Source: Boletus sp. NGJ
Lineage: Eukaryota > Basidiomycota > Agaricomycetes > Boletales > Boletaceae
Direction: 5' to 3'
Length of the DNA: 64,000 nt
Assembly: GCA_019096195.1 (NCBI GenBank)
Contig: JAGTXK010000090.1
Span: forward strand, 1-64,000
The notes under the pieces were generated by a model, which saw only the letters and a list, made by a program, of their open reading frames with translations, was not told the DNA's origin and ran no database searches. The position numbers and the translations under genes were made by a program. Shown piece by piece: positions 20,219-44,636 of the stretch (positions are counted from its first letter, which is position 1; each line of letters opens with the position of its first letter).

Positions 20219-20223
20219 CCACC

Positions 20224-20645
20224 CCAATGGAATTCATCTTTTGGGTGGGCGTAAAGATGGCATTTGACGATGGCAACTCGAAGATCATCAAGAGGTCGGA
20301 AAGCAAATGGGATTGACCTTGAATGCCATTTCTGTGACGAAGAATCACATGCACAAGTGGATAGTCTGTGGTACTGAGGAGGGGGCAAATGTGTGGGATA
20401 CAGAGATGCAGGAAAAGGTCATTCACATGGAGGGCAGAGACATGGTGAATGCAGTCGATGTTTCCCCAGACTCGACCATGTTTGCAACCAGGATTAACAT
20501 AGCAGTGAGTGTCTGATGTATAGTGAGCAGGAAGAGACTTGTTGGTCCACTGAAGCATGACTTTTATGTCACTGCAGTCAGGTTCTCCCTAAACAGCGAG
20601 CGCATTGCCACTGCTAGCTCTGGTCACTCAATCTGTATTTTCGAC
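20224..20645 (+). pseudogene. WD40 unit 0, middle piece
   Basis: Continues the second WD40 exon after Gypsy element 2: blocks equivalent to W(R)LEDGQEVGxQMGL, KWIVCGTEEGANVWDTEMQEKV, AVDVSPDSTMFAT, VGPLKHDFYVTAVRFS and IFD can be read, with frame damage. It ends in ATTTTCGAC (20637-20645), the left copy of the 9-bp target duplication of the next element. Confidence 0.85.
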
Positions 20646-20751
20646 TAGTCTGGTAACTAGCCTGGTCTATGAGGCAAGCCATCAATAGACAGTCTGGTAA
20701 AATTCATGAGAATTTTGGAGGCAGAGTGGATTCGCAGGGTCATGTGAGCTG
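20646..20751 (+). repeat. Left TIR of the RecQ-DUF6589 element
   Basis: Matches the reverse complement of 26667-26772 with about ten differences. Most are C-to-T or G-to-A at former CpG sites (for example GTGACCAG to GTAACTAG), so this end has decayed more than the right one. Confidence 0.9.
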
Positions 20752-20900
20752 GAGTCAATGAGAAAATATGATTTTGCACTTGTAAATTGTTTTGAAAACT
20801 AGTTTTTATTATTGTGAAAATAAAGTGAAATTGAACATCTATCTCAATTGCCTTTGACATGACGCAATGATCCAATACTCCCTTAAATTATTCCATTGAC

Positions 20901-23892
20901 ATGCTGTCCCTCGTTTTAATTGCTCTCTTTAATTTATCACTCGATGCTCTTTATAATGTTGCTCAAGACATTCTGCATGACAAGATCCCTCTAGAACACA
21001 TATCAATGCTCTCGGACCAGGACAAGATAGACGCACTTCGTGCATGCCTACTTATTTATATTCTTAGCTTGTCAACAATTGTGCCATGCATCTTTCAACT
21101 ACAAGCTTCTCTCGCTATTCTTAATGGACAAGACACCATTATCATAGCCGGGACAGGGTGTGGCAAGACACTCTGTCTCTTGATCCCACTCCTGCTTCAT
21201 CCGGAAACCATTTCACTTACAATATTGCCCTTGAAATGACTGCAAACAACCCAGGTATATGGTGTATGATGTAGCTTGCACGAACCTTAACTGCATGCTT
21301 TGTGTTTGCAGGTTATAGAATCTCGAAAATATGGTATAAACACAATTGTGATCAATAAAGACACACCGAGTGACCCTGCGCTGTGGCAGGTACTTTTTAA
21401 AAGCTGTACATATTGCTTTAGTTGATGTCAACATGCCATCAATTGATCAAGTCAGGTCAATACCAGCACCTTATTGTTTCGCCAGAACAACTTGGCATGT
21501 TCAATACCCACCTTCCTCAATTGGCCTCTCTCATCTGTAAGGATTGCACTTTCACAAGCAAAATCTGCTGCATTCATGTGGACAAGGCCCACAATATTTT
21601 CACTACTGGACTTTCTGAAAGGAACTTGCAATGGACGAAAGAAAGAACCTAAACCCAATATCTGAAGCATTGCTAGTTGAAGCAATATGTGACAGAGAGA
21701 AAGGCAATTTCAAGACTAAGTGAAACATGGCACTCTACCAGCTACTTATATACTACTGATAGTGGCACATGGACTGTGCTGTGCTGTGACGTCGTGGGTA
21801 CTGGGTATAATATCACAGGAATGAGAAAGTGTTAATGTCCAATAGTGAAAGTATTTAAGGGAGGAATGAGATGCGTGTGGTACATGCATGTGAGTGGAAT
21901 GTAATCCATGACGTTCTAGATGTGGCTATGTGTGATATATCTGAAGGAACCAATAAGTAGTGACAAAAGGGAGACAGGAAAGGTAATGTGTGAGGCATTG
22001 CATAGGGGTAGGGTCTGATAAATAACTTGTTGATCTAGTGTTGCTTGATCGGTACTTGGGGCGGTGTGGTGAATGATCTACAGTGTGGGCCAAGGATCGA
22101 GGATCAAGCAGAAAAGTTGAGGATCTGGAGGTGAACTCCTGATTAGTACTTGTGTAGTATACCAAGCACTGTGTCAGGTATGGTCTACAGGCCTTGTGTG
22201 GATACCAAGCACTGCTTCAGGTATATCCATGGGGTGTGGCAGTTTAGAGGTGTGTGGGCCTGTGCTTGTGGCGATGAATGCCGGGGTTAGCCATGAGGCT
22301 ACTTGGTGTCATAGTGTAACAGGTACGACGAGGGTACTACTAGTAAAAGTGTACATAGGTGTGATCAGTGGTGTGGTGCATTGTATGAGGAAGGATACGA
22401 TGAGTGGCTACTCTAGATGTATGCAAGGTGAGGCTAGGGTGGAGTTTGGTGAATGGTAGGTGAATGTATCATCTATAGGTAGTGCGGGAGTGTAGAGGGG
22501 TGCTAATAAATAATAGGTATCAATGGTGAACGTTTCACTTCCCCATCATGATGAAGCTACATTCCACCCAGCTTATGGTCGACTTAGAGGACTCTGTGTT
22601 CTCTTTACAAGAGCACCGATTCAAGCTCTATCAGCCACTTTTCCCCCACACATTCTTGTGACCATAAAGTGGGAGCTCAGGATGTCCCCAAACTGTCTTC
22701 ATATCCAGCTCTCTACAAATCGTACAAATATTACCTACACTGTTGCACCATTGATCAGAAGCCCAGTTGACTTTCATAATCTTGATTTTCTCCTTCCAAC
22801 TTCACTCCACCTGCCAATGATGATTCCAAAAACACTGATATTCCATGATTGCAAGAAGGAAGCAACTGACGCAGCACACTATGTTAATGCTTGCCTATCA
22901 CCTCATCTATGCAATCAAGGTATTGTCAAGCACTATCACAGTGACATGTCTGTTGGATATCTCCAACAACTCAAAGACTTTGCATCTCCTGACAGAAAGT
23001 GCTGCATCCTTCATGCAATAGCAGGAGCCTCTACAGTAAGTCAAAATGTGTTGGGAACTAATACTTATTTCTTGTAGGGACTTGATATTCAAGGTGTCCA
23101 AGTAGTTATTCAGTATGGGATATGCAAGAATGCATCGGAGATAATACAGCGTGTGGGATGAGCTACCCATGATCCTAAGATGCAAGGCCTTTTCCTGGAG
23201 CTTGTCAAGCCATGGGTTCTTCAACTGACTATTGACGACACTGGTTCTGATGACCCAGACCAACCATTTGCTGGCATGGTGCTGAAAAACTCATCAAAGC
23301 AAGATCAAACAGAATGTGTGGCCATACAATTTGTTCAATCCAAGACATGTCGACGTGTCTTCCTTTCAAAGTACCTTAATGATAAGACATCAGAAGGTTG
23401 GATCATTTGACAGATGTTTTGGTCTACTAATCTCCCTCTAGCAACAGCCTATGGCAACCATTGGTGTTGTGATGGTCACCTCAACTCTGATTTTCAGCTC
23501 TCTGCATTCTTTCTTGGCCAAATGGGCACTCCTGCTGAGTCCAAAGACAATATTGCTTCAGCAAAACAGAAACAAATTGTGTACTGTTCATGTGATGACC
23601 GACCTGTGTTATTACAAGAACTGACGATGTGGTGACAAGAAGCACATGAACAAGATCCTTACTGTACTATATGGGACATAACATGGTTCTGCAATGATGA
23701 CGGACTCAAGCTCTTAAGCAAAACTCATCCAGATAACATATGGTCAGTTCAAGACGTTGTTGATGTGCTCGGAGAGACAGAAGAATGGCGGCAAGAGTGT
23801 GGTTCACAGATCTACACTGTCATCACTAACTTCAATAAGGCATGGGTAAAAAAAGCAGTGAATGCAGGGCTGAGAAAGAGAGCGAAGATGTA
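20901..23892 (+). pseudogene. RecQ-like DNA helicase of the TIR element, inactive
   Basis: A superfamily 2 helicase. Walker A reads AGTGCGKT (exon 20901-21250), preceded by FQLQASLAILNGQD, the RecQ-type Q-motif side. Motif II reads HVDKAH near 21570 (DEAH-like, with K for E). After a 927-bp insertion the gene continues with FHPAYGRL, IQALSATFP (motif III), PKTLIFHDCKKEA (motif IV) and HYHSDM. ILHAIAGASTxGLDIQGVQVVIQYG (motif V) is followed by motif VI, where a TGA replaces the arginine of IQRVGR. The tail to 23892 has DGLKLLSKTHP and FNKAWVKK. Introns of about 50-65 nt follow the 21250 and 21389 donors. In-frame TGA codons at 21237, 23159, 23408 and 23633 make it non-functional. A 3'-5' unwinding role is inferred from the family. 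Confidence 0.88.
21614..22540. mobile_element. Unidentified 927-bp insertion in the RecQ gene
   Basis: RecQ coding breaks off after HNIFTTGL and resumes at PHHDEATFHPAYGRL; the word actt stands at both junctions (21610-21613 and 22537-22540). The insert has no coding frame I recognise and repeats the phrase ACCAAGCACTG...TCAGGTAT twice near 22160-22225. It could be a solo LTR or a non-autonomous DNA element. Its ends show no clear TIR or TG...CA. Confidence 0.6.
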
Positions 23893-23902
23893 GTAATACA
23901 AA

Positions 23903-26479
23903 TTAATCATCATTGCTTTCTGCAAAAACAAAGTCTGCATGTGGGATCTCATCTTCTTCAGCTTTGAACACTTCTCCAATCATCATGCCCCATACTTTTT
24001 TGTGAAATGTTGACAGAGTCGATGACCAAAGCTTCCTCTCTCCAGTGGCAAGTGCATTGATAACAGGGCAGATTTGATTATATTCATCTCTGTCTGACTG
24101 ATACTGATGAAGTGTGAGATCCTCCACTGTGTGAGCGATCTTATGGATGGATGCTGAGTTGTCAGGGGCAATATGGGTGATACCATGGTAGCCAATTTCA
24201 ATCCCCTCACCAACCTTTTTTCGAACCTGGAGCAAGAGATCTACAGCTGCAGAGATGTCTCCAAGATGATCCCAACCAGCATAGACACCTTTTGCAGCAT
24301 AAAATTGCTAACAAAGCACAAATTCTAGCAGTCTTGTTTGTAGAAATTAAACAATACCTTAAGAAACCTGATAAGATGTTCCATATTGAGGTTGGTTGCC
24401 ATGAAGTGACCATCGAGACCAGTGAAATTAACAAGCATATTGTCCCGCATGATGTTCCTTTCATCAAGGTTATTAGAAATCAATCAGCAATGTTTAAGTA
24501 AATGCATACACAAATTCTTCTGTCCAAACTCGCTTGAGGTTGAACATCAAATGCAGAATTTCAGAGCAGTAGTTGTTGGATCCTGCACCACGAAAAATCA
24601 TGCACAACTGTCCCAGCATGTCCTCTACTCTTCCGAAGTCCCCATCTGATATCGCATGAATCAGTTCAGTGACATAGAGAAGGTCCCGAGTTAGAATCCT
24701 TAGATTTTCATTGGTGGTGTCGGGCTTTTCAGGCTCAACAAGTGGAGTTGCATGGTTTCGAAGGACACGATCAGCGATCCCAATAAGCTGTGCAGGACTT
24801 GGATTGGAAAAAAGAAATGATGAGAATGTGGAGTGCCCGCATTCAGCTTTCCAAGCATTGACGATAACACCATGAAGTATCTGCGTCAGTGTCGTGAGGA
24901 GTGTATGGTAATCAGGATGTTCACATCCGAGTCGAGTTCAATCCAAGACCGCGAAGAAGTACGAGAGGCTACCAGGCTGGTTGATTGATCCTCGATGAAC
25001 ATGGAGAAGTGCCCAAATTAGGTTCATCGAGAGGTGAAAGAGACCAGGCACAAGTTGGAAGCAGCTGAGTCGAGTGAAAGGATTGAGGTCTTGAGTTCGA
25101 AGTGCTTTCGCGCCACGGATCCGAGCATTTGTAGACTGGTCATTGATGGATGGTATCGCTTGATCGAAGAGTTGTTCGTGAGTCATCCCGAGTTGGTTCA
25201 TGTAGACGTCGTTGATGACAGCAATATTTCCTGTCACTGAGCTTTCATCAATTGTCGATGTGCGGAGAGGATACTGTTTGGTCTTCCAGCCACTTGGGAG
25301 CTTTCAATGGGGTATGTGTTGGAAAACCGAATCCGACTTGTGTTGATAATCTTTAAACACTGAATTTTGAAAAAGTATCTTGATGACATGAACTTGGAAC
25401 TGGTGGTGCAACATTCGTATTTGCTCAAGAGTCAGGCGGATGTCGGACACAAAAATGAGATCAGAAGCCTGTTGTGCTCGGAGTAACATGGGTGAGAGTC
25501 GCATATGTTCCGGGTTAGCATTGGAGATCGCATAGAGTATCGCAAATGTCCCCGACTGTACTTTTGCTGGAGCCAAGGCACGCTGTTCGACGTGTATTGA
25601 TGTACTGATGTTGATATTATCGTAACAAAGGACATGGGGTTCGAGAGCGGCACGAGTTGCATCTTCAATACAATGTGTTGCAAGGTTGTTCAATAACCTG
25701 AGGAGCGATGTGAACGATATCCCTAAGCCACACTGATACAGGGCTTCAATTGTCTGACGAGAAGCACCATTGACCCATGCAAAGAGTGTGAATGGTGCCG
25801 CAAAATAAAGGCTATGGTTGGAACGTTGCTTCGCAAGCTGCGAGATAACAACAGCACACGCCTTGACAGAAGGCACGTCTGAATTGATCAATAAACAACA
25901 AGGTAATTAACTACTACATACTGTTCGGCCTGATTTTATTTTATTGTTCTCCCTCGCGGACTCCGTCTGTGAAGCGGACTGTAGGATACGGTAGAGCGTC
26001 GGGCAAGCCTTGTTAGCAATATCGTCCATTGATGAGGCAAAGTTCCAGTCCCTGAGATACCCTGGAGTGATCGAATCAATGGTCCGTTGTAGCGCAACCT
26101 TCACCGCATCCATCTCGTCGTAAATTTTCTTGTCCACCAAATCAATTGCATAGGGCTCCATCCAACTGGAAAGCTGTTGTCGGCCACGCTTATCATCATG
26201 TATGGCATCAAGGAGTTTTGCTAGCTTGCCGTTCCTCTCGCCCATTGGAAGTGTGTAGATTCGGTCTCGGTATGCAGCATATTCTGGTTCGTTTGGATCG
26301 AAGACCTTGATCAGGAAGTCAAGTAGTGAAATTCGTCCACCTCGAAGGATTTCCAAAGCACGTTTAATGCGTTCGGATGACAAAAGACGCTCTGATCGGC
26401 CATATGAAACGTCCACCAGGTTGACCATTTCGCAGATGATGTTGGCATTGTTTGACTCGGAGGGCATTTTCAGGTGCAA
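23903..26479 (-). pseudogene. DUF6589 protein of the TIR element
   Basis: Starts at ATG 26479. An intron at about 25926-25881 joins KSGRT to DVPSVKACAVVISQLAKQRS. Landmarks in order are RQTIEALYQCGLGISFTSLLRLLNNLA, HVLCYDNINIS, EQRALAPAKVQSGTFA, TIDESSVTGNIAV, IPSINDQSTNARIRGAK, LFHLSMNLIWALLHVHRG, EHPDYHTLL, GRVEDMLGQL and GAGSNNYCSEILHLMFNLKRVW, with EIPHADFVFAE just before the stop at 23903. This is the agaricomycete DUF6589 family, whose conserved YDN, NDQST and SEILH blocks could be an acidic triad of an RNase H-fold transposase (inference). In-frame TGA at 25304-25306 and 24938-24940 interrupt it; short introns near 24500 and 24340 are also likely. Confidence 0.85.
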
Positions 26480-26666
26480 ATTGTGACTGTTGATCTCGGA
26501 ATAGGCAAGGGGGACCAGAACTATCGCAGGAGAGACGAACGAGAATACCGTCGTTCAAGGAGAGTGTCGAGTAACACTTATCATCAAGACTTAGACAAGA
26601 CTTAAACAATTTGCATTGGGGTTATCTGCCCGTCCACGTGCACAAAACAAGTCCAAGATGGGGTTT

Positions 26667-26772
26667 TCAGTCACGCGACCCTGAGAATCCGCTCTGCCTC
26701 CAAAATTCTCATGAATTTTACCAGACCGTCTATCGACGGCTTGCCTCATAGACCGGGCTGGTCACCAGACTA
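26667..26772 (-). repeat. Right TIR of the RecQ-DUF6589 element
   Basis: Inverted partner of 20646-20751. The last ~270 bases of this end (about 26500-26772) recur inverted in the small element at 26825-27100. Confidence 0.9.
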
Positions 26773-26824
26773 GTTTTCGGGTGTCACTGTTTTGATGGTA
26801 ATGAGTATTGCGACTGTCGAAAAT
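26773..26824 (-). other. Flipped fragment of WD40 exon
   Basis: Read on the minus strand this spacer gives ATTTTCGACAGTCGCAAT, then CTCATTACCATC and ACAGTGACACCCGAAAAC. That is the WD40 exon stretch found on the plus strand at 35595-35645 and 39538-39592. Here it is inverted relative to its gene and lies between two facing copies of the same transposon end. Confidence 0.9.
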
Positions 26825-27131
26825 TAGTCTGGTGACCAGCCCGGTCTATGAGGCAAGCCGTCGATAGACGGTCTGGTAAAATTCATGAGAATTTTGGAGG
26901 CAGAGCGGATTCTCAGGGTCGCGTGACTGAAAACCCCATCTTGGACTTGTTTTGTGCACGTGGACGGGCAGATAACCCCAATGCAAATTGTTTAAGTCTT
27001 GTCTAAGTCTTGATGATAAGTGTTACTCGACACTCTCCTTGAACGACGGTATTCTCGTTCGTCTCTCCTGCGATAGTTCTGGTCCCCCTTGCCGACGGCT
27101 TGCCTCATAGACCGGGCTGGTCACCAGACTA
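26825..27131. mobile_element. 307-bp non-autonomous derivative of the RecQ-DUF6589 element
   Basis: Starts TAGTCTGG and ends CCAGACTA with the same terminal repeats. The interior is an inverted copy of the DUF6589-side end of the large element (about 26500-26690), including the DUF6589 promoter and leader region but no coding sequence. The flanks share acccga, a decayed target duplication. A MITE-like copy that the larger element's enzymes could have mobilised. Confidence 0.88.
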
Positions 27132-28768
27132 ACCCGACCAATCACTCCACTTGCATGGTCCAACGATGGCCAACAAATCTTTGCCGCCTCGAAGGACAAC
27201 AAGATCAAGTTATTTGACGTGTCGATGGGGTCGCAGCTCGCCGACTCGCCGATTCTTGGTTACGCCATGTCGATTGCTTTAGTTGCCAGTGGTAAATTCC
27301 TTGCTGCGTTTGCACGCGGGGCCATCTCATTCCTGGACACATCGACTCTCTCTCAAACTGGCCCTGTCATCAAGGACAGCAATAGCATATGGGCAATTAC
27401 CATCTCTCCGAACAGTGACTATCTGGCGACTGGACTACATGACGGGAAGATCGCCATTCGTGACCTCGGCGGTATTCTCCCGGATGTTTATGGTCCATCC
27501 CTTGTAAGATTTGTCCAATCAATGTCGACATGTCAGATTAAGCCCGATTCCGTCTCACACATTGACACTATTTTAGACATCTAATCGCGATGAAACACAA
27601 CGATATGAGCAGCCTTCGACGTCTGGCAGCCGTGACAACAAACCGTCTAACTCCCTAGTAGGAGTTTGCCATTCTGTCACTAAAAGGGCTGTGCTGACCC
27701 TCTCATTGTGTATGTACACCAGGAAGAAACTGGGAAATCCAGCCCAATCGAGTCCAAGATATACGGCGAAGACCGCGATGACGATCTCCTCGAGGTATCC
27801 GTTCGCCCCTTTCCCCCTCAAAGCGAGTTCTCACGATCGCACAGGTTGAGGTGCCATCCAGCGCCCCCGCCCCTGAATTCAATTTTGACGAGGTTGGTGA
27901 TCACTACATTATCCTCTCTCCTCCGTGTTGACACTGCTGTAGCCACCATCTCCAGGATCCTCTTCCCATCGTGAGGACGAAGTACCGCCCCCTGACGCGT
28001 CCCATGTCGTAGCGCAGTTATCAGACGCCATACCTGTGATCTATCCTCCATTGACACGTGCAGAGGAACCTGTCGAGTCGTCTCAGGGCATTATGAAGTT
28101 TAAAAGGTGGCTAGAGGCGAGGACCAAGAACGGTAACAAGGACATTGCTTCGCATAATCCCGGTCGAGCTCCCAAAGAATCCCATCGGCCTGCCGATGGT
28201 CAGCTTTCTTCCCAATCACCAGCGGACGCCACAAACGAGGGACTTTCGCGGATGGCTGCAGGTCAACGTGTACCAGTGAGTACTCTTCCTGGATGGATGA
28301 TGTGTCTAAAATATCACCATAGCGAGCGGTCGCGAAACCCGTTGTAAAACGAGATGTTCGTATTCCCCGAGTTTGTGTTCCGGGTCTTATTAGATGTTAC
28401 AGCCTAAATCGCCTGCCAGGGATGCTCACGCTAGTCATCCGAAGAAAGATGCTTCTCGTAGTGGACAATGCTCTGCAAAACCACAAGAAGTAGACCCGGT
28501 ACATCTGTTTACTGCTTATTATGTGCCATATCACGATAATTTATTTCCTGTTAGGTGGAACACGCAAACGATGCATCTCATTCCTCTGCCGGGGGGTCCA
28601 TCTTACGGTGCGCACACCTTCTTTACGGTTATGTTGTGAGACTCACAGTGGATCGCATCAGCGAGAATCAGGCAAGGCTACCCTTGAGGCTAATGTCAGG
28701 CTTTCGATGAAGATGTCATTTCCCGCATGGATGTGTTGTAGTTCGAGTACCGGAGATAGGAGGCATTG
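27132..28768 (+). pseudogene. WD40 unit 0, 3' part
   Basis: Resumes the WD40 exon (PLAW-type blade, then IKLFDVSMGSQLADS, ISFLDTSTLSQTG, AITISPNSDYLATGLHDGKIAIRDLGGILPDVYGP) to a GTAAGA donor near 27507. The small phase-0 exons of the tail follow as in unit C: SNRDETQ..., EETGKSSPIESK..., VEVPSSAPAPEFNFDE, a basic segment (FKRWLEARTKNGNKD), AVAKPVVKRD, then QPKSPARDAHASHPKKDASRSGQ. Because four insertions and an inversion break the gene upstream, it is a pseudogene even though this part reads fairly well. Confidence 0.85.
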
Positions 28769-30451
28769 ATCAGGTGATCCGATTCAATACGTATAGTCTC
28801 GCGTTCTGGACTTGTCGATGGAGAGAAATCTTATTACTGACATCGACAATAAAGTCTATCGTCGGTTGGATGATGCACGAATAAATCGTGGATGTGCCCG
28901 GCCGCAGTGCTACTATTACGAGGACATATAAGATTCTAAACCACGCGCTGTTTGTCAACGACGCCGTTGATGATTGAACGAGACATATCAAGTCCAAGTT
29001 CTATCCGTGCACCCTGACATCGACATTCAGAGATGCGCCGATGGAGGGCTACAACATTGATAGTGAGGGAGACAGAGAAATAGGGAGAGGTCCGATTGTT
29101 CCGAAGACCGGCGTTGATGTAGGGCGATGGTGATGGCGGGAATATCTGTGACGCCCTGCGAGACAAATAGCTCGTCAAAAACCCAGACCGGGACTGGGAC
29201 CCCTCGATTCACCGTGATAGTCATGTTGATTCGGTATTCGGTCGGTTGCCCTGCGGTGGAGAGGATGCTAATCTCCCCTTCATCGAACAAGATCGTGGAG
29301 ACAGATTCAGATGGACGTTGTCTTTCGCGATGATGAGACGCGCGTTTAGAGATGCCAAAAAAAAAAAAACAGTTTGCATATCTACACAGCAAATGAATAG
29401 GGGAGAACTGGCAAGGATGATGAGGGTGGAGTGTGCAAGTTTTGTACATGAAGAAAAAGATCTCACCATGCTCAAGTTACTACCTCCAACACATTTCCAC
29501 CGATCCTACCCAGTTACGGTTCCGTTTCGGTGGAGAACTAGCACAACTACCTGATGTTAGGGTATCGAGAGTCCGGCGAGAAAGATTGAAAGGTTGGATG
29601 CTTTAAAAATTGGACGTCAAACCCACCAACCATTCAATAACGCGCTGGATCGGTGAGTCAAACCTAACTGCTCCCGCCAACCGGTGACCCAACAAGATAT
29701 GGCTCTTGCAGATGCGATGACCTGATGATTTTCTTGCAGGATCCGACGTAACTCGAAGAATGAAATCGTACAACAGGGACGGCCTGCCCCGCTGAGTTGT
29801 CTTCGGCGTCGTCATATCGACACTCGGATCGACGATACTCTCACACCAAATTGGACTCTAGCAGCCGCGTCCATTGCTCCGAAATGCGATTTTACCCATC
29901 CTTGAATATGAATATGCTTTGGAAGAGAAAGTAAGAGAACACGACGTGCACTCAATCACAATCTCACGCATACTGCATTAGTAGAAACCGCTTCCGAGAG
30001 CTAAGCATAATACTTGGAAGCGATCTCAAACATTGCGCGCTGAACACGGAAATTTGCCGTTGGTTGTCCAGAGACATCATTGTCGTCGACGAGGCGTGGG
30101 TGTGAGCACAACCATTCGAGCCGCAGAGAAACACGTACATATGTACCTCTGCGACGGCCACCTGCTCGACGTCTATAGCAGAAAGCGCAAGCTGTTCCCG
30201 AAAAGACTACCTGTGTCAACGAGGGAAAGTTTGACCGATGGCCTGACTGCTTGCCTGGCCGTCGCACCGACTCGGAGGTCACTGAGCTGGGTCCAATTAA
30301 AGTAAGAATAAGCGCCAAAGCCACGAGGCGGCCCGATTGAGAATGAGGAAACGTGTAAGTTGTGGGGCTACTTTGCGCACTACGAGTAAACCGAAGACGC
30401 CTCGTTCTTTCACTCTTTGAAGCCAACGACCGCATAGGCCCATCAGTGAGG
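28769..30451. other. Spacer between WD40 units 0 and A
   Basis: The spacer shares blocks with 32660-34600 and 37255-38990. A minus-strand stretch (about 29450-29030) reads SLNARLIIAKDN and YRINMTITVNRG, loosely reminiscent of the end of a fungal multi-pass membrane protein, but I cannot name it and see no complete frame. The part from about 29980 is the unit's 5' flank. A run of 12 A lies at 29358-29369. Confidence 0.4.
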
Positions 30452-32645
30452 ATGTCGTTGACAAAGACTGGTGCGTAACAGTTCTGAGTGATTGTGCAAT
30501 GCTGAATTTTCAGTAAGACCCAAAGATAGTGCTTGAGACCAGCAGCGGGTCTAGACTGAGGGCAGTCGCGTTCCACCCTGACGGAAAGCACATTTTGGGT
30601 GGGGGTAACGATGGGATTCAACGATGGCGACTCGAAGACGGTCAAGAGGTAGGAAACCAAATGGGATTGACCTTTAATGCCATTTCTGTGACGAGGAATC
30701 ACAAGTGGATAGTGTGCGGCACTGATGAGGCGGGGGCAAATGTGTGGGATGAAGAAATGCAGAAAATGGTCATTCTCGTGGATGGCACAAACTCGGTGAA
30801 TGCAGTTGATGTTTCCCCAGATTCAACCACATTTGCAGCCGGGATCGACAGAGCAGTGAGCATCTGGCGAATAACGAGCGGCAAGAGACTCGTTGGCCCG
30901 CTGAAGCACGACTTTTATGTCACTGCAGTCAGATTCTCCCCGAACGGCGAGCGCTTTGCCACTGCCAGCAATGGTCGCTCGATCCGCATCTTCGACAGTC
31001 GCAATGGGGACGAGCTCATTACCATCGAAACAGTCACACCCTCCACATGGCCAATCACTCCGCTTGCATGGTCCAACGACAGCCAACAAATCTTTACCGC
31101 ATGTAACAACAAGATCAAGCTATTTGACGTGTCGACGGGGTCGCAGCTTGCCGAATCGCAGAATCTCGGTGGCGACATCTACTCTCTTGCTCTAGCTGCA
31201 AATGGGAAATTCATTGCTACGTCTTGCGGGCAGTAGCCATCTCATTCCTGGACACGTTGAGACTCTCTGTCATTGACTCTGTCATTGAGGACAGCAATGG
31301 ATTACGGGCAATTGCCATCTCCCCGAACAGTGGCTATCTGGCGACTGGACAGTATGATGGGAAAATTGCCATTCGTGACCTCGGCGGCATTCTCCCGGAT
31401 GTTTATGGTCCATTCCATGTAAGCATTTGTCGAATTCACAATTCGGCATGTGCAATATGCCCTATCTTGCCTCCCACATTGACACTCCATGTTAGATATC
31501 TAATCGCGAGGAAACACAACCAGACGAGCGGCATTCCAATAAACCGTCTGACTCCCAAGTAGGAGTCTGCCTTTCCGTCACCAAAACGGCTGTGCTAACT
31601 CGTACACCAGGAAAAAACGTAGGGAATCAGGCCCACTCGGGTCCTCAACACACAGCGAAGATGGCAATAAGGATCTCCTCGAGGTATCTGTTTGTCCTTT
31701 TCCCCCCAAAGCGAGGTCTGACCATTGCACAGGTCGAAGTGCCATCCGGCGCGCCCGCCCCTGAATTTGATTTTGACGAGGTTGGTGATCACTACATTAT
31801 CATCTCTCCTCTTCGTGTTGACACTGCTGTAGCCCCCATCCCCAGGATCATCTGCCCATTGTGCAGACGAGGTACGGCCCCTTGACACGTCCGATGGTGC
31901 AGCGCAGTTATCAGACGCCGTACCAGTGGTCTACCCTCCATTGGCACGTGCAGAGGGTCACCTCGACACTGTCGAGTCGTCTCAGGGCATTACGAAGTTT
32001 AAAAAGTGGCTACAGGCTAGGCTCAAGAAGAGTAACAAGGACCCCACTTCACATAAGCCCGAGTCGAGCTCCCAGAAAGTCGCGTCGGCATGCCGATCGT
32101 CGATCTCCTTCCCAGTCGCCAGCGAGAGTGGACGCCACAAACGAAGGGCCCTCACGGATGGCTGCAGGTCAACGTGTACGAGTGAAGTACCCATCCTTGA
32201 TAGATGCTCAGATGTAATGTGTCTAATATATCATCATAGCGAGCGGTCGCGAAACCTGTTGTGAAACGAGATGTTCGTAGTTCCTCAAGTTTGTGTATAG
32301 GGACTCATTAGATGTTGCAGCCTAAATCGCCTGCCAAGAACGCTCACCACAGCCGTCCGAAGAAAGATGCTGCTCGTAGTGGGCAAGGCTCTACAAAACC
32401 ACAAGAAGCAGGCCCGGTACGTCTTTTTTCTTGTTGTTATGTGTCATGTCATGGTAGCTTATTTACTATTAGGTAGAACAAACAAACAAACGATCTCCTC
32501 CCTCCGCTGGGGGGGTTCACCTCACGGTGCGCGCACTTCCCTTACGTTTATGTTTTGAGACTCACAGTAGATCACATCAGGAAGAAGCAGGCAAGACTTA
32601 CCCTTGAGGCTACCCTCAGGTTGACGTTTCCTACGTGGATGTGTT
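30452..32645 (+). pseudogene. WD40 unit A, frameshifted
   Basis: Exon 1 (30452-30470, MSLTKT) is joined by a 47-nt intron (30471-30517) to the blade exon: AVAFHPDGKHILGGGNDGIQRW, IVCGTDEAGANVW, AVDVSPDSTTFAAGIDRAVSIW, AVRFSPNGERFATASNGRSIRIFD, IKLFDVSTGSQLAES and LALAANGKFIATS. A frameshift near 31225 creates a TAG at 31234-31236, and the other frame then continues through the last blade (AIAISPNSGYLATGQYDGKIAIRD). In the tail exon equivalent to unit C 40170-40241 there is a further TAG. The rest of the tail is colinear with units B and C. Probably non-functional; otherwise as unit C. Confidence 0.85.
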
Positions 32646-35040
32646 GTAGGTCAGGTACCGGAGATGGGACACATTGATCTAGGTGATTTGATGCAATACG
32701 TCTATTCTCGCATTTTAGAGGACTTGTCAATGGAGAGATATCCTATTTCTGATTTGCTTGACATGGACAACAAAACATGGCATCGTTCACAAATAGCGCG
32801 TGACCTAGATTTGAGTATGTCCTCGTAATAATGGTACTATAGTCGCGTACATCCATGATTTATTCGCGCATATATCAAGTCCAAGTTGTAACTGTCCACC
32901 TGACATCGACATCCCCGAGATGCGCCACCCGACGTCTTCAGAGAAGTACAACACTGTGAGGGAGACAGAAATAGGGAGATGTCCGATTGTTCGGACGACA
33001 GGCGTTGATGTAGGGCGATGCTGGTAGCGAGGATATCTGTATGGGGAAAATGATGCCCAGGTTTGTGTGGGACGGCGCGAGTTGGGCAAGGAAACCTGCA
33101 AGGTGCATATGCACGGATCATGATACGTGATGATGGCGAAGACGTACCGAAATCGCTACAGACGACGACATATTACCAGAACTGATACACACCCCGTCAC
33201 AATAACCTATGCTATGTTTCAGCACGCCTCTGCAAACCCGATGCCAACCGAGAGCCATACCAGCAACGAGCTGGCGAGCCAATTCGTAAGGACATAGGAT
33301 ACGTTGCCGAACTCGTCCACACCGATCGAAGACGTCTATTCATTATGCATACTCAGACCTCGGGGGGCCGCGATAATTGGCCAACGGTAATTGCGTGAAC
33401 TGGGAGTTGGACCCAAGGAAGGAGATCCGAACGTAGACATAGACGGGAAAGAAAAGCTTTCGTATACCAGAGGGCATGAGAGCAGAGCCAGAAAAAGCAC
33501 GGTTCCGTACTAGCCGGTGATGAGTGCGCCAGCGAGCCATGCTTGTTCCTGCGGAGAGGGTTGAGACTCGGGTGGATGTTGGACGTGTGTGAGGGCCATC
33601 CCTGGTAGAAGATGTCAGGCTCAAGGCAGAGATAAATGCAAAGAGAATAGGGCCGAGAATGATGGAGGTGGGCATATAAAGCAAAAGACCTCACCACGCC
33701 CAAGTTACCAGCACATTCCCACCATTGCTACTCAGTTACGGTTTCGTTTTTCGGTGGAGAACCTATTTCAAAGACCCATGTATTCCAATACAACTACCTT
33801 GGTGTCGGAATATCGGAAGTTGGACGGGGAATTTTGAAGGGTTGGACAGAAAGCGCTTGCAAGCCCTGCAACTTTGAAAATTGACATTAAACCCTCCAAC
33901 TGATCAATAATACGCTGGTTCGACGAGTCAAACCTAACTGCTCCCGCCGGGCCGGTGACCCAAAGCGATGTAGCTGTTACAGATGCGATGACCTGATGAC
34001 GCTTCACGCAGAGAGTTCGACGTGACTCGAAAGTGAAATTTGATAAAGTCGTGCAACAAGGACCAATACGTCCTGCTTCAACATCAGCATATCAACACTC
34101 GGATCGATGGTATACTCATACCAAATTGAACTTTGCGGGCGAATCCTCACTCTGAAATGGGATTTCACCCATCCTTGACACCTCAAACACGACCGCGCCT
34201 GTCTGTTATGAACCTCGATCCACATGTCCACCTTGGTTGCTCGTGGAACGGGAAGGATATACGACGCGTCAAACTGACTTTGAGGGGAAAAGTATGAGAA
34301 CACGACGTGCAACTCGATCACACTGCTGCACACACCGCATTGGTGGCATCCACTTCCAAGAGTTCAGCATGATACCTGCAAGCGAGCTCAAGCATTTCTG
34401 TCAGTTCCATGTACAGTACGTGCTGAACCCAGGAACTTGTCATTGGCTCTCCAAAAGTATTACTGGCGTCGACAGGATGTGTGTGTGAACGCAACCATTT
34501 GAGACCTGAAGAAACACGCACGTTCGTCTGTGATGTCCCCATAGCAGAGAGCACAAGCTGTTACAGAAACGCCCCCACTTGTGAATCTGAATCTGACCGT
34601 GACTCGAGATCGAGTGACGCATACATTCGTCTAGCATCCCCAGAAATTTTCTAGAGCACGCGAGCGCTCCATTTTGGAAAACGTTCTCGAATGCACGCGT
34701 GTTTTGTGCACGGTATGTCGCGAGTGGGTCTAATGCGGATTGTACACTCGTCCTGAACCGAGTCCTGCATCTGAGATACGACGAGGACTCCCAAGTCCCG
34801 GGTTAAGACTACCTGTGGCAACGACGGAACGTTTGGTCAATGTTGACTGTTTGGTTGGTCGTCGCAACCAGGTCACCTAGATCCAAGTAAGAAAAAGCGC
34901 CAAAGACACGAGGCGGCTAGGACCCAATTAAGGGTAAAGGAAACGTGTTTTGTGAGCTCACTTTGCGCACAACGAGTAAACCGAAATATCTCCTTCTTTC
35001 ACTCTTCGAGCCAAGTGACTGCGTAGGGCCATCAGTGAGG
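32646..35040. other. Spacer between WD40 units A and B
   Basis: Colinear in parts with the other two spacers. The minus strand at 33340-33700 has a hydrophobic start (MLYMPTSIILGPILFAFISALSL) but no recognisable protein. From about 34200 to 35040 it is the 5' flank of unit B, matching 38180-38997. No convincing gene. Confidence 0.4.
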
Positions 35041-36906
35041 ATGTCGTTGATAAAAACTGGTGCGTAACAATTCTAAGGAGTGACCGTGCAACTTGAATGC
35101 TGAGTTTTACTAAGACCCAACGATGGTACTTGACACCGGCAGCTCTGTGGCGAAGGCAGTCGCGTTCCACCCTGACGGAAAGCACATTTTTGGCGGGGGT
35201 GACAATGGGATTCAACGGTGGCGACTCGAAGACGGTGAAGAGGTCGGAAAGCAAACGGGAATGCGGTTGAATGCCATTTCGGTGTCAAGGGATCACCAAT
35301 GGATAGTGTGCGGCACTGATGAGGCGGGGGCAAGTGTGTGGGATACAGAGATGCAGGAAAAGGTCGTTGACGTGGAAGACAGAAACAGGGTGATGACAGT
35401 CGACGTTTCGCCTGATTCGACTACATTTGCAACTGGGACCGGAGCCCCTGGCAAGGACGTGAGCGTCTGGCGCATACCGAGCGGGCAGAGACTCGTTGGC
35501 CCACTGAAGCATGACTTTTATGTCACTGCAGTCAGATTCTCCCCGAATGGCCAGCGCATTGCCACGTCCTGCAGGGAAGGCCCCATCCGTGTTTTCGACA
35601 GTCGCAATGGGGACAAGCTCATTACCATCGAAACAGTCACACCCGAAGCTTGGCCAATCACTCCGCTTGCATGGTCCAACGACAGCCAACAAATCTTTAC
35701 CGCATGTAACAACAAGATCAAGCTATTTGACGTGTCGACGGGGTCGCAGCTTGCCGAATCGCAGAATCTCGATGGCGACATCTACTCTCTTGCTCTAGCT
35801 GCAAATGGGAAATTCATTGCTACCTTTGCAGACAGAGTCATCTCATTCCTGGACACGTTGAGACTCTCTGTCATTGACTCTGTCATTGAGGACAGCAATG
35901 TATTATGGGCAATTGCCATCTCCCCAAACAATGACTATCTGGCGACTGGACAATATGATGGGAAAATCGTCATCCGTGACCTCGGCGGCATTCTCCCGGA
36001 CTCATATGGCCCATTCCTTGTAAGCATTTGTCCATTCAATTGTGGCATATGAGATAGCCCCATTCCGTCTCATACATTGACACACTATCTCAGACGTCCA
36101 ATCACGAGGAAAGACAGTCAGACGAGCAGCCTTCAACCTCTGGCACCCGTGACAACAAACCGTCTGACTCCCCACTGGCAGTAGGAGTTTCCCGTTCTGT
36201 CACCAAAAGGACCATGTTAACTCACTCGTACGCCAGGAAGAACCTGGGAAATCAGGCCCACTCAGATCCCCGACACACAAAGAAGGTGGAAATGAGGATC
36301 TCCTCGAGGTATGTGTTCGTTATTTCCCCCCTCGAAGCAAGGTCCGACAGTTGCACAGGTCGAAGTGTCATCCAGCGCACCCGCCCCTGATTTTGATTTT
36401 GACGAGGTTGGTGATCACTACATTATCCTCTCTCCTCCGTGTTGACACTGCTGGAGCCATCATCTCCAGGATCCTCGGCCCACTGTGAGGACGAAGCACC
36501 GCCGCTTGACACGTCCCATGCCGTAGCGCAGTTACCAGACGCGATACCAGCGACCTACCCTCCACTGGCATGTGCAGAGGAACATGTCGACATTATCGAA
36601 TCGTCTCAGGGCATTACAATGTTTACAAAGTGGCTACAGATGAGGACCAAGAAGAGTAACAAGGACCCCGCTTCGCACAAACCCGGTCAATCTTCTTCCC
36701 AATCTCCAGCGACAGTGGACGCCACAAACGAGGGACCTTCGCGGATGGCTGCAGGTCTACGTGTACCTGTGAGTGCTCTTCCATGATAGACGATCTGATG
36801 GGGTATGGCTGATATTCCATCATAGCGAGCGGTCGCGAAACCCGTTGTAAAACGAGATGTTCGTAGTTCCTCGAGATTGTGTGCTGGGTCTTATTAGATG
36901 TTATAG
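35041..36906 (+). CDS. WD40 propeller protein, unit B (tail truncated)
   Basis: Exons by comparison with unit C: 35041-35059, 35115-36019, 36094-36180, 36237-36308, 36359-36406, 36457-36768, 36826-36858 and 36898-36906, all but the first ending in phase 0. The blade exon has about seven WD-type repeats (AVAFHPDGKHI, IVCGTDEAGASVW, TVDVSPDSTTFATG, AVRFSPNGQRIATS, PLAWSNDSQQIFTA, SLALAANGKFIATF, AIAISPNNDYLATG), forming one beta-propeller, a protein-binding platform. An acidic-to-basic disordered tail follows. A TAG right after ML at the start of the eighth exon shortens it to about 494 residues; unit C reads on with Q there. The GTTCGT donor before that exon is also weaker than the GTATGT of unit C. 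Unknown partner and role. Confidence 0.72.
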
Positions 36907-38997
36907 CCTAAACCTCCCGCCAAGGATGCTCGCCCTAGCCATCCGAAGAAGGGTGCTTCTCGTAGTGGACAAGGCCCTACAAAACCACAAGAAGTAGGCC
37001 CAGTACATCTTTTTCTTGTTATTATGTGCCTTGTCATGATAACTTATTTCCTACTAGGTAGAACAAGCAAACGATCGATCTCATTCCGTTGGTGGGGTCC
37101 GTGTCACGGTGCGCGCACAACCCTTATATTTATGCTGTGAGACTCACAGTGGATCACATCAGGAAGAAGCAGGCAAAACTACCCTAGAAGCTAACCTCAG
37201 GTTGTCAATCACGTTTCCTACGTGGATGTGTTGTAGGTCAGGTACCGGAGATGGGACACATTGATGTAGGTGATTCGATGCAATACGTCTATCCTCGCAA
37301 TTTGGAGGCCTTGTCGATGGAGGATTCTGACTTGCTTGACATGGACAACGACCATCGTTGGTTAGATGATGCACGAACAAATCATGGATGTACGAGACTA
37401 TAGTATGTACTACTATTACGAGGATATACATAACTCTACGCCACGCGCTATTTGTCAACAGTGCCATAGAACGAGATATCAATATATCAAGTCCCAGTTG
37501 TTATATCCGTCCACCCTGACATTGACATCCCGGAGATGCGCTATCTCGACATCTTCAGAGAAGCACAACATTCACAACGAAAGAGACAGGGTTGAAAGAG
37601 GGAGGTGTCCGGTCGTACGACCAGCGCTGTTGTAGGGCGATGATGATGGCGAGGAGGTCTGTGTGAGATATTGTAAACTGTTATTCTTCGAGTTACGTTG
37701 GCTCTGCATGAGGCGCAATTACCACTTACCAACTATCGTAGGCGCCCCGGAGGTCCGAGTGTGTATGAGGAACAGAGGTGTCGATTGGTGTGGACGAGAT
37801 CGGAAGCGTATCTTATGCGTTGGCTCGCTAACCCGCTACTTGTATGGCTCTCGGTCAGCGTCAGATTTCTCGATCATTGGTTATGATGACGGGGTTTGTG
37901 CAAGGCCTGGCAATGTGTCGTCATCTATGGCAATTTTTGGTTGACCTCGTCATCATTGGTCTCATGCAACTTACACTTTGTGGTGAATATCATGATTCGC
38001 CCATTCCCACCTCGCAGGTTTTCTACTTCATACAACAAGGACCAATCCGTCCTGCTTCGACGTCATCATATGAACGCTCGGATCGATGGTATACTCATAC
38101 CAAATTGAACCGTGCGGGCCCATCCGTTACTCGGAAATGCGATTTTACCCATGCTTGACTCCTTCAACGTACCACTAGTGTGATCCACGGGTTGATCTTG
38201 GTCGCTCGAGGGACGAGGGGAGAATACGACGCTTCAAATATGCTTTGGAAGAGGGTAGGAGAACACGACCGTGACGCATTCGATCACACTGCCACGCATA
38301 ATACCGCATTGGTAGAATCTGCTCCCAGAGCTCAGCAGAGTACTTGAGAGCGATCTCAAGAATTTCTGTGAGCTCCAAGCGTGTGATGAAAAATTTGTCA
38401 TTGAATGTCCAGAGGTATTACTGGCCTTGACGAAGTATGAACGCAAGAGCTGCGCCACTATTCGAGCCCCGAAGAAACGCGTACGTATGTCTGCGGCGGC
38501 CACCTGTCCGACGTCTATAGCGGTGAGGCCGAGCTGTTCCCGAAACGCCACACAGATGATTGTGAATATGACGTGGTTCGAGATCGGGTGGTGCAACATT
38601 TGTCTCCCATCTTGCACGAAAATTTCCTCGGGAGTACGAGCGATCCTTGCTGAAGAACCTCCTGGCCCGGGAATGCACGCGTGTTTTGTGCACGGTATGT
38701 CGCAAGTGGGCTAATGCGCTCCTCGTGAACCGAGTCCTGGATACGAGATACGACGAGCACTCCCAAGTCCCGGCATAGGATTACCTGCGTCAACACGGGA
38801 AGGTTTGGCCGATGCTGACTGCTTGCCTGGTCGCCGCAATGAGGTCAGCTAGCTGGGATCCGAATAAGCGCCAAAGACACGAGGCGGCCCAATTGAGAAT
38901 GGGGGAAAAGTGTTTGTAAGGCTACTACGAGTAAAACGAAAACATCTCGTTCTCTCACTCTTCCAAGCCAAGTGACTGCGTAGGACCATCAGTGAGG
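36907..38997. other. Unit B 3' remnant and spacer to unit C
   Basis: To about 37255 the sequence is colinear with the last coding exons and 3' end of the other units but lies past the unit B stop. From 37255 it is spacer, and from about 38180 it is the 5' flank of unit C. A plus-strand stretch at 37840-38000 and a minus-strand one at 38230-38620 are open but match nothing I know. Confidence 0.45.
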
Positions 38998-41163
38998 ATG
39001 TCGTCGATAAAAACTGGTGCGTAACAATTCTGAGGAGTGACCGTGCAACTTGAATGCTGAATTTTACTAAGACCCAACGATGGTACTTGACACCGGCAGC
39101 TTTGTGGTGAGGGCAGTCGCGTTCCACCCTGACGGAAAGCACATTTTTAGCGGGGGTGACAATGGGATTCGACGGTGGCGACTCGAAGATGGTCAAGAGG
39201 TAGGAAAGCAAATGGGAATGTCCCTGAATGCCATTTCTGTGACGAAGGATCGCAAGTGGATAGTATGCGGCACTGATGAGGCGGGGGCAAATGTGTGGGA
39301 TACAGAGATGCAGGAAAAGGTCGTTGACGTGGAAGACAGAAACACGGTGAATGCAGTTGATGTTTCCCCAGATTCAACCACATTTGCAGCCGGGATCGAC
39401 AGAGCAGTGAGCATCTGGCGAATAACGAGCGGGAAGAGACTCGTTGGCCCGCTGAAGCATGACTTTTATGTCACTGCAGTCAGATTCTCCCCGAACGGCG
39501 AGCGCTTTGCCACGTCCTGCAGGGAAGGCCCCATCCGTGTTTTCGATAGTCGCAATGGGGACGAGCTCATTACCATCGAAACAGTCACACCCTCCACATG
39601 GCCAATCACTCCGCTTGCATGGTCCAACAATGGCCAGCAAATTTTCGCTGCATCAACAGACAACAAGATCAAGTTATTTGACGTGTCGACGGGGTCGCGG
39701 CTCGCTGAATCGCAGACCCTCGGTGGCGGCAATGTCTACTCTCTTGCTCTAGCTGCAAATGGGAAATTCATTGCTACCTTTGCAGACAGAGTCATCTCAT
39801 TCCTGGACACGTTGAGACTCTCTGTCATTGACTCTGTCATTGAGGACAGCAATGGATTACGGGCAATTGCCATCTCCCCGAACAGTGGCTATTTGGCGAC
39901 TGGACAATATGATGGGAAAATTGCCATTCGTGACCTCGGCGGCATTCTCCCGGATGTTTATGGTCCATTCCATGTAAGCATTTGTCCAATTCACAATTCG
40001 GCATGTGCAATATGCCCTATCTTGCCTCCCACATTGACGCTCCATGTTAGATATCTAATCGCGAGGAAACACAACCAGACGAGCGGCATTCCAATAAACC
40101 GTCTGACTCCCAAGTAGGAGTTTGCCATTCTGTCACCAAAAGGACCATGTTAACTCACTCGTACGCCAGGAAAATCTTAGGAAATCAGGCCCACTCGGGT
40201 CCTCAACACACAGCGAAGATGGCAACGAGGATCTCCTCGAGGTATCTGTTTGTCCTTTTCCCCAAAAAGCGAGGTCTGACAATTGCACAGGTTGAAGTGC
40301 CATCCGGCGCATCCGCCCCTGAATTTGATTTTGACGAGGTTGGCGATCACTACATTATCCTCTCTCCTTCGTATTGACACTGCTGTAGCCCCCATCTCCA
40401 GAATCGTCTGCCCATTGTGAGGACGAAGTACCACTCCCTGACGCGTTCGATGCCGTAGCGCAGTTGTCAGAAGCCATACCGGCAATCTACCCTCCATTGG
40501 CATGTGCAGGGGAGCGACTCGACAGTATCGAGTCGTCTCAGGGCATTTCAAAGTTTGCAAAGTGGCTTCGGGCGAAGACCAAGAAGGGTAACAAGGACCC
40601 CACTCCGCATAAGCCCGGTCGAGCTCCCAGGAAATCGCGTCGGCCTGCCGATCGTCGATCTCCTTCCTACTCACCAGTGAGAGTGGACGCCACAAACGAA
40701 GGACCTTTGCGGATGGCTGCAGGTCAACGTGTACGAGTGAGTACCCATCCTTGATTGATGATTGGATGCAATGTGTCTAAAATATCATCATAGCGAGCGG
40801 TGGCGAAACCTGTTGTCAAACGAGATGTATGTTATCCCTCGAGTTTGTGTGCAGGGACTCATTAGATGTTACAGCCTAAATCGCCTGCCAAGGATGTTCA
40901 TGCTAATCATTCGAAGAAAGCCGCGTCTCGTAGCGGGCAAGGCTCTGCAAAACCACAGGAAGCAGGCCCAGTGCGTCTTCTCTCTTGTCGTTATGCGCCA
41001 TGTCATGATCTGTTAGCCGGAACAGGCAAATGATGAATCTCATCCCTCTGCCGAAGGGGTCCATCTCACGGTGCGCGCGCTTCCCTTACTCTTATTTTGT
41101 GACTTTTGTCAGACTCAGTGGATCACATCAGCGAGAATCAGGCAAGGCTACCCTCGAGGCTAA
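38998..41163 (+). CDS. WD40 propeller protein, unit C (apparently intact)
   Basis: Predicted exons: 38998-39016, 39072-39973, 40051-40113, 40170-40241, 40291-40338, 40389-40736, 40794-40826, 40866-40970, 41017-41070, 41113-41163. Exons 1 and 2 together, then each internal exon, are exact multiples of three, and all junctions have GT-AG. That gives about 560 residues. Residues ~10-300 form one propeller of about seven blades (AVAFHPDGKHIFSGGDNG, VCGTDEAGANVW, AVDVSPDSTTFAAG, AVRFSPNGERFATS, PLAWSNNGQQIFAA, SLALAANGKFIATF, AIAISPNSGYLATG). The tail is Ser/Glu-rich, then Lys/Arg-rich (KFAKWLRAKTKKGNKD, GRAPRKSRRPADRR), with AAGQRVRAVAKPVV, a block common in agaricomycete WD40 families. The last exon is least certain. 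Cytosolic or nuclear scaffold is a guess. Confidence 0.78.
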
Positions 41164-42841: not shown

Positions 42842-43410
42842 CACTTCAGTCACCCTCCCAGGGGTATCTCATCAGTCCATCTCTCCCACTAGAGGGTTGG
42901 ACCTATAAGGTGCCTAGGATTAGGAAATTCCCAATAATATGGGCAACATGAATGATTAAGGGCCTTTATTAGAAAACAGGTTGGTTTTCCCAGAGCAGTT
43001 TCCAAAGGGAATTCCCAGTGCCCAAAGGAAAAAGAGAATTCCCATATTGACAGGGTGTTAGGGGTTCTGCTGTGCTTTATTGCAAATGTAATATGTTATG
43101 ATTTAGAACTTGAAGGGATTTCTAATAAAGAGGTCAATTATTCATTTGAAATCAAGATAAAAAGCCTTTTATAGGACTCAGCAGAGATCTGGTGATTGTT
43201 CTCCACAGTAGAGAAAATAAGGGCAGGATACTAAGGAATAAATTTTTATCCTCTGCAAAGCATATGCTATAAAATGAGATAGCTTGACTATTGAATTTAA
43301 TGAGATTGGGATTACTTACAAGATAGCAAAAGTTATTGAGAAATGAGGTTTTGTTCTCAAAGCATGTGCTATGAAATGGAGTAGCTTGACTGTTGGATTT
43401 GATGAGGATG

Positions 43411-44636
43411 GGGGGTACTTAGAACAGGCAAACTAGTAAGTGATATATTACATAAATATAATATATGGCTGAAGTTGTGTAATATATAATGTATAGTAGG
43501 CTATGAAATAGGGTAGCTTGACCATTGAATTTGATGAGGATGGGTGTTATGGTTACTGAAGGGGGTACATCTTTTTCTCTCCCTTCACCTCCTTCCAGAC
43601 TCTGAGACGACCTATTCTTTGATTTCTCTGGCTACCTAGGATTCCCCTGCAACGCCCACACAAGCATCACCACATCTGGAACTTCCTTTCTGAGTGATGC
43701 ACTGCTATGGCTGTGATATAGCCTTCTTTATTTCACCTTCTACATATTTCACCTCTGATACGACCATAGACATTGCCTCCTCGGCTGTGTTCTCTTATAC
43801 ACAGCCCAGTATTCCACCTTCCTCATTTAACCCATGACATGATCCTTTATGGTAATACTTACAATTACCATATATAATACGAAGCCTGCCCTGAATAGGG
43901 AAGGCCTATTTATATGGGCATCCACCCTTCATGTAAATCCCAACCTAGATCTACACAACTTCTTGTGTAATCTACCCACCCTTTGGTTCCACCTCACCTT
44001 AGAAGCCTGTGCCCACTCTGGAGGTGATCACCACAGTGCTCATGATCATCTTACTTATCACTTTGCACTTGTGTGGCCTTGTCGCCGTCTGCTCATATTG
44101 CTAGCCAACAGCAACTCCAACAGCAACAAAGGATAGGTCTGCCCTTCTTTCAGATTGAGCCACCATCCTCAAAGTCTGAGACTCCAACATCGGTCATAGA
44201 GTAGCAGCTCCAACCCCAAGGGAGGCTCTATGTTAAAGCTAGCTGTCGGTCCCCAGTCTGAGGAATCTTTGGGCCTCGGGAGGTATTTTCCCCTCAAGTC
44301 TGGCTAGTCCAGTAATCATACAGGGTTGATTACTCAGGAACATGTTACTTGTTACACAGCGTAACAATGGGGGATACTTAGGACAGGCAAACTAGTAAGT
44401 AATACACTAAATATAATACATGGCTGAAGTTATGTAATATATAATGTATAGTAGGCTATGAAATGGGGTAGCTTGACTGTTGAATTTGATGAGGATGGTG
44501 GGGGGTACTTAGGACAGGCAAACTAGTAAGTGATACACTAAATATAATATACAGCTAAAGTTGTGTGATATGTAATGCATAGTAGGCTATGAAATGGGGT
44601 AGCTTGACTGTTGAATTTAATGAGGATGAAAGGAGG
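43411..44636 (+). repeat. Three ~130-bp tandem units in the left ITR
   Basis: Units at 43411-43544, 44367-44500 and 44501-44636 each run from GGGGGTACTTAG(A/G)ACAGGC through TAGTAGGCTATGAAAT to GATGAGGATG. The solo LTR at 43545-44366 sits between the first and second unit. Confidence 0.85.
43545..44366 (-). repeat. Solo LTR, family TGTTACG, copy 3 (diverged)
   Basis: 822 bp. On the minus strand it starts TGTTACGCTG and ends CCATAACA, with target duplication atggg (43540-43544 and 44367-44371). It matches copies 1 and 2 in order but is clearly more diverged and shorter, so it is an older insertion or a sister subfamily. Confidence 0.88.

Follow-up and report, generated by a model that had tools for sequence, protein, structure and literature searches.

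Element A occupies positions 20646-26772 of a 64,000-nucleotide stretch of Boletus sp. NGJ DNA (the whole stretch analysed, here called the window; assembly GCA_019096195.1, contig JAGTXK010000090.1) and raises the question of which function a DUF6589 protein has beside a RecQ-type helicase in one DNA transposon, and to which known group such an element belongs. Copy A is degenerate and dead as present in the window; it is likely to represent a decayed cut-and-paste, helicase-carrying transposon, most probably AcademH, in which DUF6589 is the DDE transposase. AcademH is the helicase lineage of the Academ superfamily, reportedly defined by Kojima in 2020. What is new is a likely function, that of a transposase, for DUF6589, the lineage of the element itself having most probably been described already.

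The DUF6589 gene of A is interrupted by in-frame stops and is matched in pieces by the Pfam family DUF6589 (PF20231), the joined read-through reaching E 5e-98. A relative from Paxillus involutus (P0001) served as the reference for AlphaFold2 modelling with 90 alignment rows; in the resulting model (pLDDT 89.4) the arrangement of the strands agrees with an RNase H core, with a helical insert ahead of the helix that carries E606. Three acidic residues are placed at topologically fitting sites, D249 within the strand 244-254, D410 after the strand 405-409 and E606 in the helix 601-617, and they are conserved in 85/86, 76/77 and 86/87 of the rows without a gap. D486 and D565 are similarly conserved (89/89 each), so that conservation alone cannot single out the triad; topology and conservation together make D249/D410/E606 the predicted catalytic triad. 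These residues belong to the motifs YDN, NDQST and SEILH, which a sequence-only reading of this DNA had named as a candidate acidic triad. The Pfam match starts at residue 299 of the reference, downstream of D249, and the Pfam model therefore leaves a portion of the catalytic domain uncovered.

Structural comparison points in the same direction. Foldseek against the PDB returned Hermes transposase as the best match, which is not significant (E 0.046), and in a second look with VIA-align, which showed 50 rows, DDE transposases and RAG1 take up every one of the top 30 (Hermes 11.5, P element 8.7, ISCth4 8.1, RAG1 7.9, Transib 7.8), row 31 scoring 4.3. In the predicted model DUF6589 shares with Hermes, the P element and RAG1-Transib the RNase H fold, a large helical insert and a DDE triad, at about 10% sequence identity. 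DUF6589 is probably an RNase H-fold DDE transposase, the role that the sequence-only reading had given it, and the comparison with RNase H-fold transposases on which that claim was to be judged yields an RNase H-like predicted fold with the conserved acids present. At the sequence level, no Pfam domain besides DUF6589 was found in 4/4 DUF6589 proteins scanned at E up to 0.1, and the DUF6589 profile gave four matches among PDB sequences, none better than E 0.76. No viral model reached E <= 0.001 in Foldseek, where a hAT-like Pandoravirus protein came closest (0.0047); scans of viral contigs and of bacterial and archaeal genomes yielded no confirmed relative, and no long DUF6589 protein (about 1129-3591 aa, as expected for RecQ fusions or animal polyproteins) was present at E <= 0.001 among 7514 candidates.

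The two genes of A converge, with a DEAD helicase domain on the plus strand and DUF6589 on the minus strand, between inverted ends of 104 nt that are 90% complementary (20644-20747 / 26671-26774; about 106 bp had been estimated). A 35-bp end pattern occurs 4 times within the window, in comparison to a mean of 0.00 (none) in 100 shuffles, and across copies the ends measure 104-116 bp and read TAGTCTGG...CCAGACTA. The genes had also been thought to fill the whole element; in fact, a foreign high-copy element of 922 bp lies within the RecQ gene, which in addition contains in-frame stops.

Exon 1 of this gene (20901-21236) encodes a DEAD helicase domain (E 3.3e-7), the Walker A motif GTGCGKT is retained and the DEAH box has become DKAH; intact relatives show both PF00270 (DEAD) and PF00271 (Helicase_C) domains. 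Among PDB sequences the top match, 7a8r (E 1.6e-15), bears the title 'ATP-dependent DNA helicase'; RECQ1 (3.8e-13) and BLM (1.2e-12) come next, and RecQ is also among the matches. The best NCBIfam model, recQ_fam, scores 97 bits against a cut-off of 219.8 and is thus below threshold. As judged from its sequence, the helicase of A is RecQ-like but divergent. CpG is scarcer in the two parts of the RecQ gene (observed/expected 0.43 and 0.26) than in the DUF6589 gene (0.76), the 10-kb flanks (0.88 and 0.96) or the window as a whole (0.67); cytosine deamination is a possible route of decay of the RecQ gene. Copies of the inserted element are 922-988 bp long and give 67 matched stretches genome-wide, the window's own included, a number that is a lower bound as some copies are split. 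By eye, other copies are flanked by 5-bp duplications such as TGAGC, CTTCT and GATAT, and one directly adjoins the DUF6589 match of the element on C109.

The same pair of genes recurs in this genome. In the 32.8-Mb assembly a DUF6589 relative used as query gave 23 matches and a RecQ relative 21, and seven RecQ loci were counted, two weak matches on C22 (E 8.6e-6 and 6.2e-4) being left out because they were taken for host RecQ genes. Of these seven loci, all of one RecQ subfamily, five have DUF6589 convergent with RecQ. At all six loci that retain the RecQ N-terminal part, the first RecQ match is preceded at 228-411 bp by a TAGTCTGG-like end (TAGACTGG on C30). The co-occurrence that the first inspection proposed as a check is found within the genome, and RecQ, recurring with DUF6589 and with these ends, is element-encoded. 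The two C107 copies have flanking DNA in common and look like a single insertion that was duplicated, so that independent insertions are fewer than seven. Exact ends gave 30 genome matches at 28 sites, two of which are palindromes matched on both strands, and the end pattern read backwards gave none.

A perfect 9-bp duplication is found around four other copies or relics: the C107 element (GGAAGCTTG), a miniature of 98 bp on C114 (GTTGTGAAA) and two relics, one single-ended and 43 bp long on C81 (CTTCGTACG), the other 28 bp long on C21 (CCTTACTGT). A set of 18 further loci that were read, C21 among them, includes one perfect case (C21), three that agree at 8/9 positions and one with a 7-bp repeat; at the other 13 no duplication was present within the short stretches fetched. 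No duplication was seen beside a recognisable partner end at L029, L031, L035, L037, L039 and L040, and the L029 stretch did not reveal a right end for the copy at C109:179.5 kb. Relics of 19-43 bp, consisting of fused or single ends, occur at C21:283992 (L067), C81:103670 (L038), C129:417010 (L081) and C89:290010 (L077); two of the four have perfect 9-bp duplications, and such relics perhaps derive from failed gap repair after excision.

At A itself the 9-bp duplication ATTTTCGAC is real, and the position first assumed for its second copy, directly beside the right end, has to be corrected: that end abuts GTTTTCGGG and the second copy stands inverted at 26816-26824. A WD40 paralogue of the interrupted host gene contains a single near-copy, ATCTTCGAC. 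When the flanks of A are joined with the intervening 52-bp segment flipped, they match three WD40 paralogues at 79-82% over 250 columns (bits 243, 221 and 218), versus bits 165, 147 and 144 for the same paralogues with the segment unflipped; the better match of the flipped segment indicates that A made a 9-bp duplication and that the DNA between A and its neighbour, element B, was inverted later. Element B is a miniature derivative that repeats the right end of A exactly, in reverse complement, over 269 bp and continues with a 38-39-bp end; its own duplication is imperfect, with ACCCGA common to both sides. The facing arms of A and B form a palindrome (26504-26779 / 26818-27093; 276-nt arms, 38-nt spacer, reported 100% complementary) that would favour inversion of the DNA between them. 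The 52-bp inversion probably arose through recombination across this palindrome; an assembly artefact at the palindrome may instead account for the inverted segment.

Beyond this genome, protein searches gave 156 DUF6589 relatives, of which 120 are listed, and 37 RecQ relatives; the DUF6589 search scored only the 7996 candidates with most words in common, and the listed relatives supplied alignments of 45 (A1) and 90 (A2) rows, the 30 omitted from A2 all being of <=509 aa. The named species in both sets are agaricomycetes, the nearest being Boletales. Shared contigs were sought through identical size in bp of the source contigs, comparing the 120 listed DUF6589 rows with all 37 RecQ rows. Eight RecQ rows have a contig identical in size to that of a DUF6589 row, and seven of the eight are matched in species too: Paxillus ammoniavirescens (17,505 bp), Boletus edulis (18,229), Melanogaster broomeanus (131,453), Suillus luteus (54,981, with gene numbers 24807 and 24809), Mycena latifolia (520,733), Roridomyces roridus (2,068,246) and Plicaturopsis crispa (2,455,696); the eighth case is a contig of 38,998 bp. 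Randomly jittered sizes gave 0.05 collisions on average and 2 at most. The closeness of the pair is informative on the short contigs and little so on megabase contigs; the remaining 29 RecQ rows have no size match to any listed DUF6589 row.

Helicase-carrying DDE transposons have been reported. DEAD and Helicase_C domains are linked to AcademH and KolobokH, and AcademH is described as low-copy in Basidiomycota, Ascomycota and Mucoromycota (PMC10799480); AcademH makes duplications of 9 or 10 bp and AcademX of 3 or 4 bp, a difference tied to helicase versus nuclease (PMC10045372). A RecQ helicase was listed in Academ by 2013 (PMC3627910), and KolobokH is described with RecQ, Kolobok making TTAA duplications (PMC9587614). 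Since both AcademH and KolobokH are reported with a helicase, this combination is not new, and the candidate new transposon class that the sequence-only reading had put forward is not supported.

AcademH, as reported, resembles A in combining a DDD/E transposase and a helicase within one element, in its 9 or 10-bp duplications and in its Basidiomycota hosts. In our material the helicase domains are found in exon 1 of the window gene and in the intact relatives, the duplications are the four perfect 9-bp cases and ATTTTCGAC at A after inversion, the transposase is represented by the predicted fold and the conserved acids, and the named relatives, being agaricomycetes, belong to Basidiomycota. 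A fits AcademH in every tested feature and is filed as probably AcademH-like, a likeness drawn from published descriptions of features. KolobokH is likewise reported as a fungal DDE transposon with a RecQ helicase; unlike A, Kolobok has 4-bp TTAA duplications and RR...YY ends, and KolobokH has RecQ downstream of the transposase, whereas varied 9-bp duplications, TAG...CTA ends and convergent genes are seen here (window, L029). Membership in KolobokH was rejected on duplication, ends and gene order. hAT elements make 8-bp target duplications; that of A is 9 bp, which does not fit hAT, and no hAT domain was found in the DUF6589 proteins scanned with Pfam.

Some points speak for other readings: Pfam still assigns no function to DUF6589 and gives no transposase match, the name DUF6589 was not found in the literature searched, the long ends with a 9-bp duplication and the presence of ISCth4, an IS256-type relative of Mutator, among the structural matches are reminiscent of Mutator, and RecQ genes are common in fungi. 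The first two favour a separate DDE superfamily of DUF6589 elements, distinct from Academ, with RecQ gained independently of AcademH and KolobokH; this is unlikely, given that reported AcademH agrees with A in helicase, 9-bp duplication and host group and that Academ itself is missing from the C/DxxH list. Mutator-like elements (MULEs) have long inverted ends and 8-11-bp duplications, a likeness to A (104-116-bp ends, about 9-bp duplications) that had led to its first description as Mutator-like. That A is a divergent MULE with an acquired RecQ gene is nevertheless very improbable: no MULE or Mutator domain was found in 4/4 DUF6589 proteins scanned, the highest structural score belongs to Hermes, a hAT transposase, and MULEs are not known to carry a RecQ gene; Mutator-like identity was rejected on the missing domain. 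Host RecQ and DUF6589 genes trapped by chance between unrelated inverted repeats are excluded for practical purposes by the recurrence counts of the convergent pair (5/7) and of the TAGTCTGG-like end (6/6).

The AcademH-like transposon would work on features that are present in the sequences (the ends, the 9-bp duplications, the recurring gene pair, the miniature derivatives and the conserved acids) and through the fold and active site predicted for DUF6589. We infer cut-and-paste transposition with a role for the helicase. The DUF6589 protein would pair the two ends, cut them through D249/D410/E606 and two metal ions, and insert them into target DNA at joints staggered by 9 bases; the RecQ-type helicase may act on DNA at the ends by opening or stripping it, or aid gap fill and repair at donor and target. 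In the window A landed in a WD40-repeat gene, its miniature relative B lies at a distance of 52 bp, and the stretch between their near-identical facing ends was flipped. If DUF6589 is a DDE transposase, hypothetical proteins such as the 156 relatives found would be relabelled as mobile DNA, and A offers a defined element for asking of what use a RecQ helicase is to a cut-and-paste transposon. Were DUF6589 elements a superfamily of their own, a doubtful prospect, this would extend across mushroom-forming fungi, and helicase capture by cut-and-paste transposons would have occurred at least three times.

Table 1. Features of element A and its surroundings in the window, and RecQ loci of the same subfamily in the genome.
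Feature	Position	Strand or orientation	Basis and remarks
Host WD40-repeat gene, portion upstream of insertion	20219..20645	+	families D7, D9 match copies near 30.6, 35.2 and 39.1 kb
Left copy of 9-bp target site duplication, ATTTTCGAC	20637..20645	+	sequence; joined-flank comparison with three paralogues
Left terminal inverted repeat of A	20646..20747	+	begins TAGTCTGG; 90% complementary to right arm over 104 nt
RecQ-type helicase gene	20901..23892	+	introns, stops, insert; DEAD domain, 37 relatives, tblastn; boundaries approximate
Unrelated high-copy transposable element (TGAAAGG...GTTTCA) inside RecQ gene	21616..22537	.	genome search
DUF6589 gene, putative DDE transposase	23903..26464	-	introns, in-frame stops; boundaries approximate
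Right terminal inverted repeat of A	26671..26772	-	inverted-repeat comparison
Host WD40-gene segment of 52 bp, inverted	26773..26824	-	paralogue comparison; reverse complement opens with ATTTTCGAC
Second copy of ATTTTCGAC, inverted	26816..26824	-	sequence
Element B, 307-bp miniature derivative	26825..27131	.	directly beyond 52-bp segment
Host WD40-repeat gene, portion downstream of insertions	27132..27584	+	family D1; open reading frame 27219-27584; paralogue comparison
RecQ + DUF6589 locus	window	convergent	genome search
RecQ + DUF6589 locus (L029)	C109:179.5-184.4 kb	convergent	genome search
RecQ + DUF6589 locus	C107:79785-98907	convergent	interrupted by foreign DNA
RecQ + DUF6589 locus	C107:11.6 kb, reversed	convergent	DUF6589 fragment about 9.6 kb off, at contig start
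RecQ + DUF6589 locus	C109:109.7-116.1 kb	convergent	RecQ C-terminus only
RecQ loci without DUF6589 match	C17 and C30		element end + RecQ N-terminal part

The WD40-repeat paralogues form a tandem array in the window (27320-41068; families D1-D9) with a spacing of about 3.9-4.6 kb. An inverted repeat of 349 nt (93%) with a 208-nt spacer lies at 49413-50318. Long inverted repeats of 423, 192 and 103 nt (95-96%) at 42842-44629 and 57624-58338, about 14-15 kb apart, may mark the two ends of a further large element.
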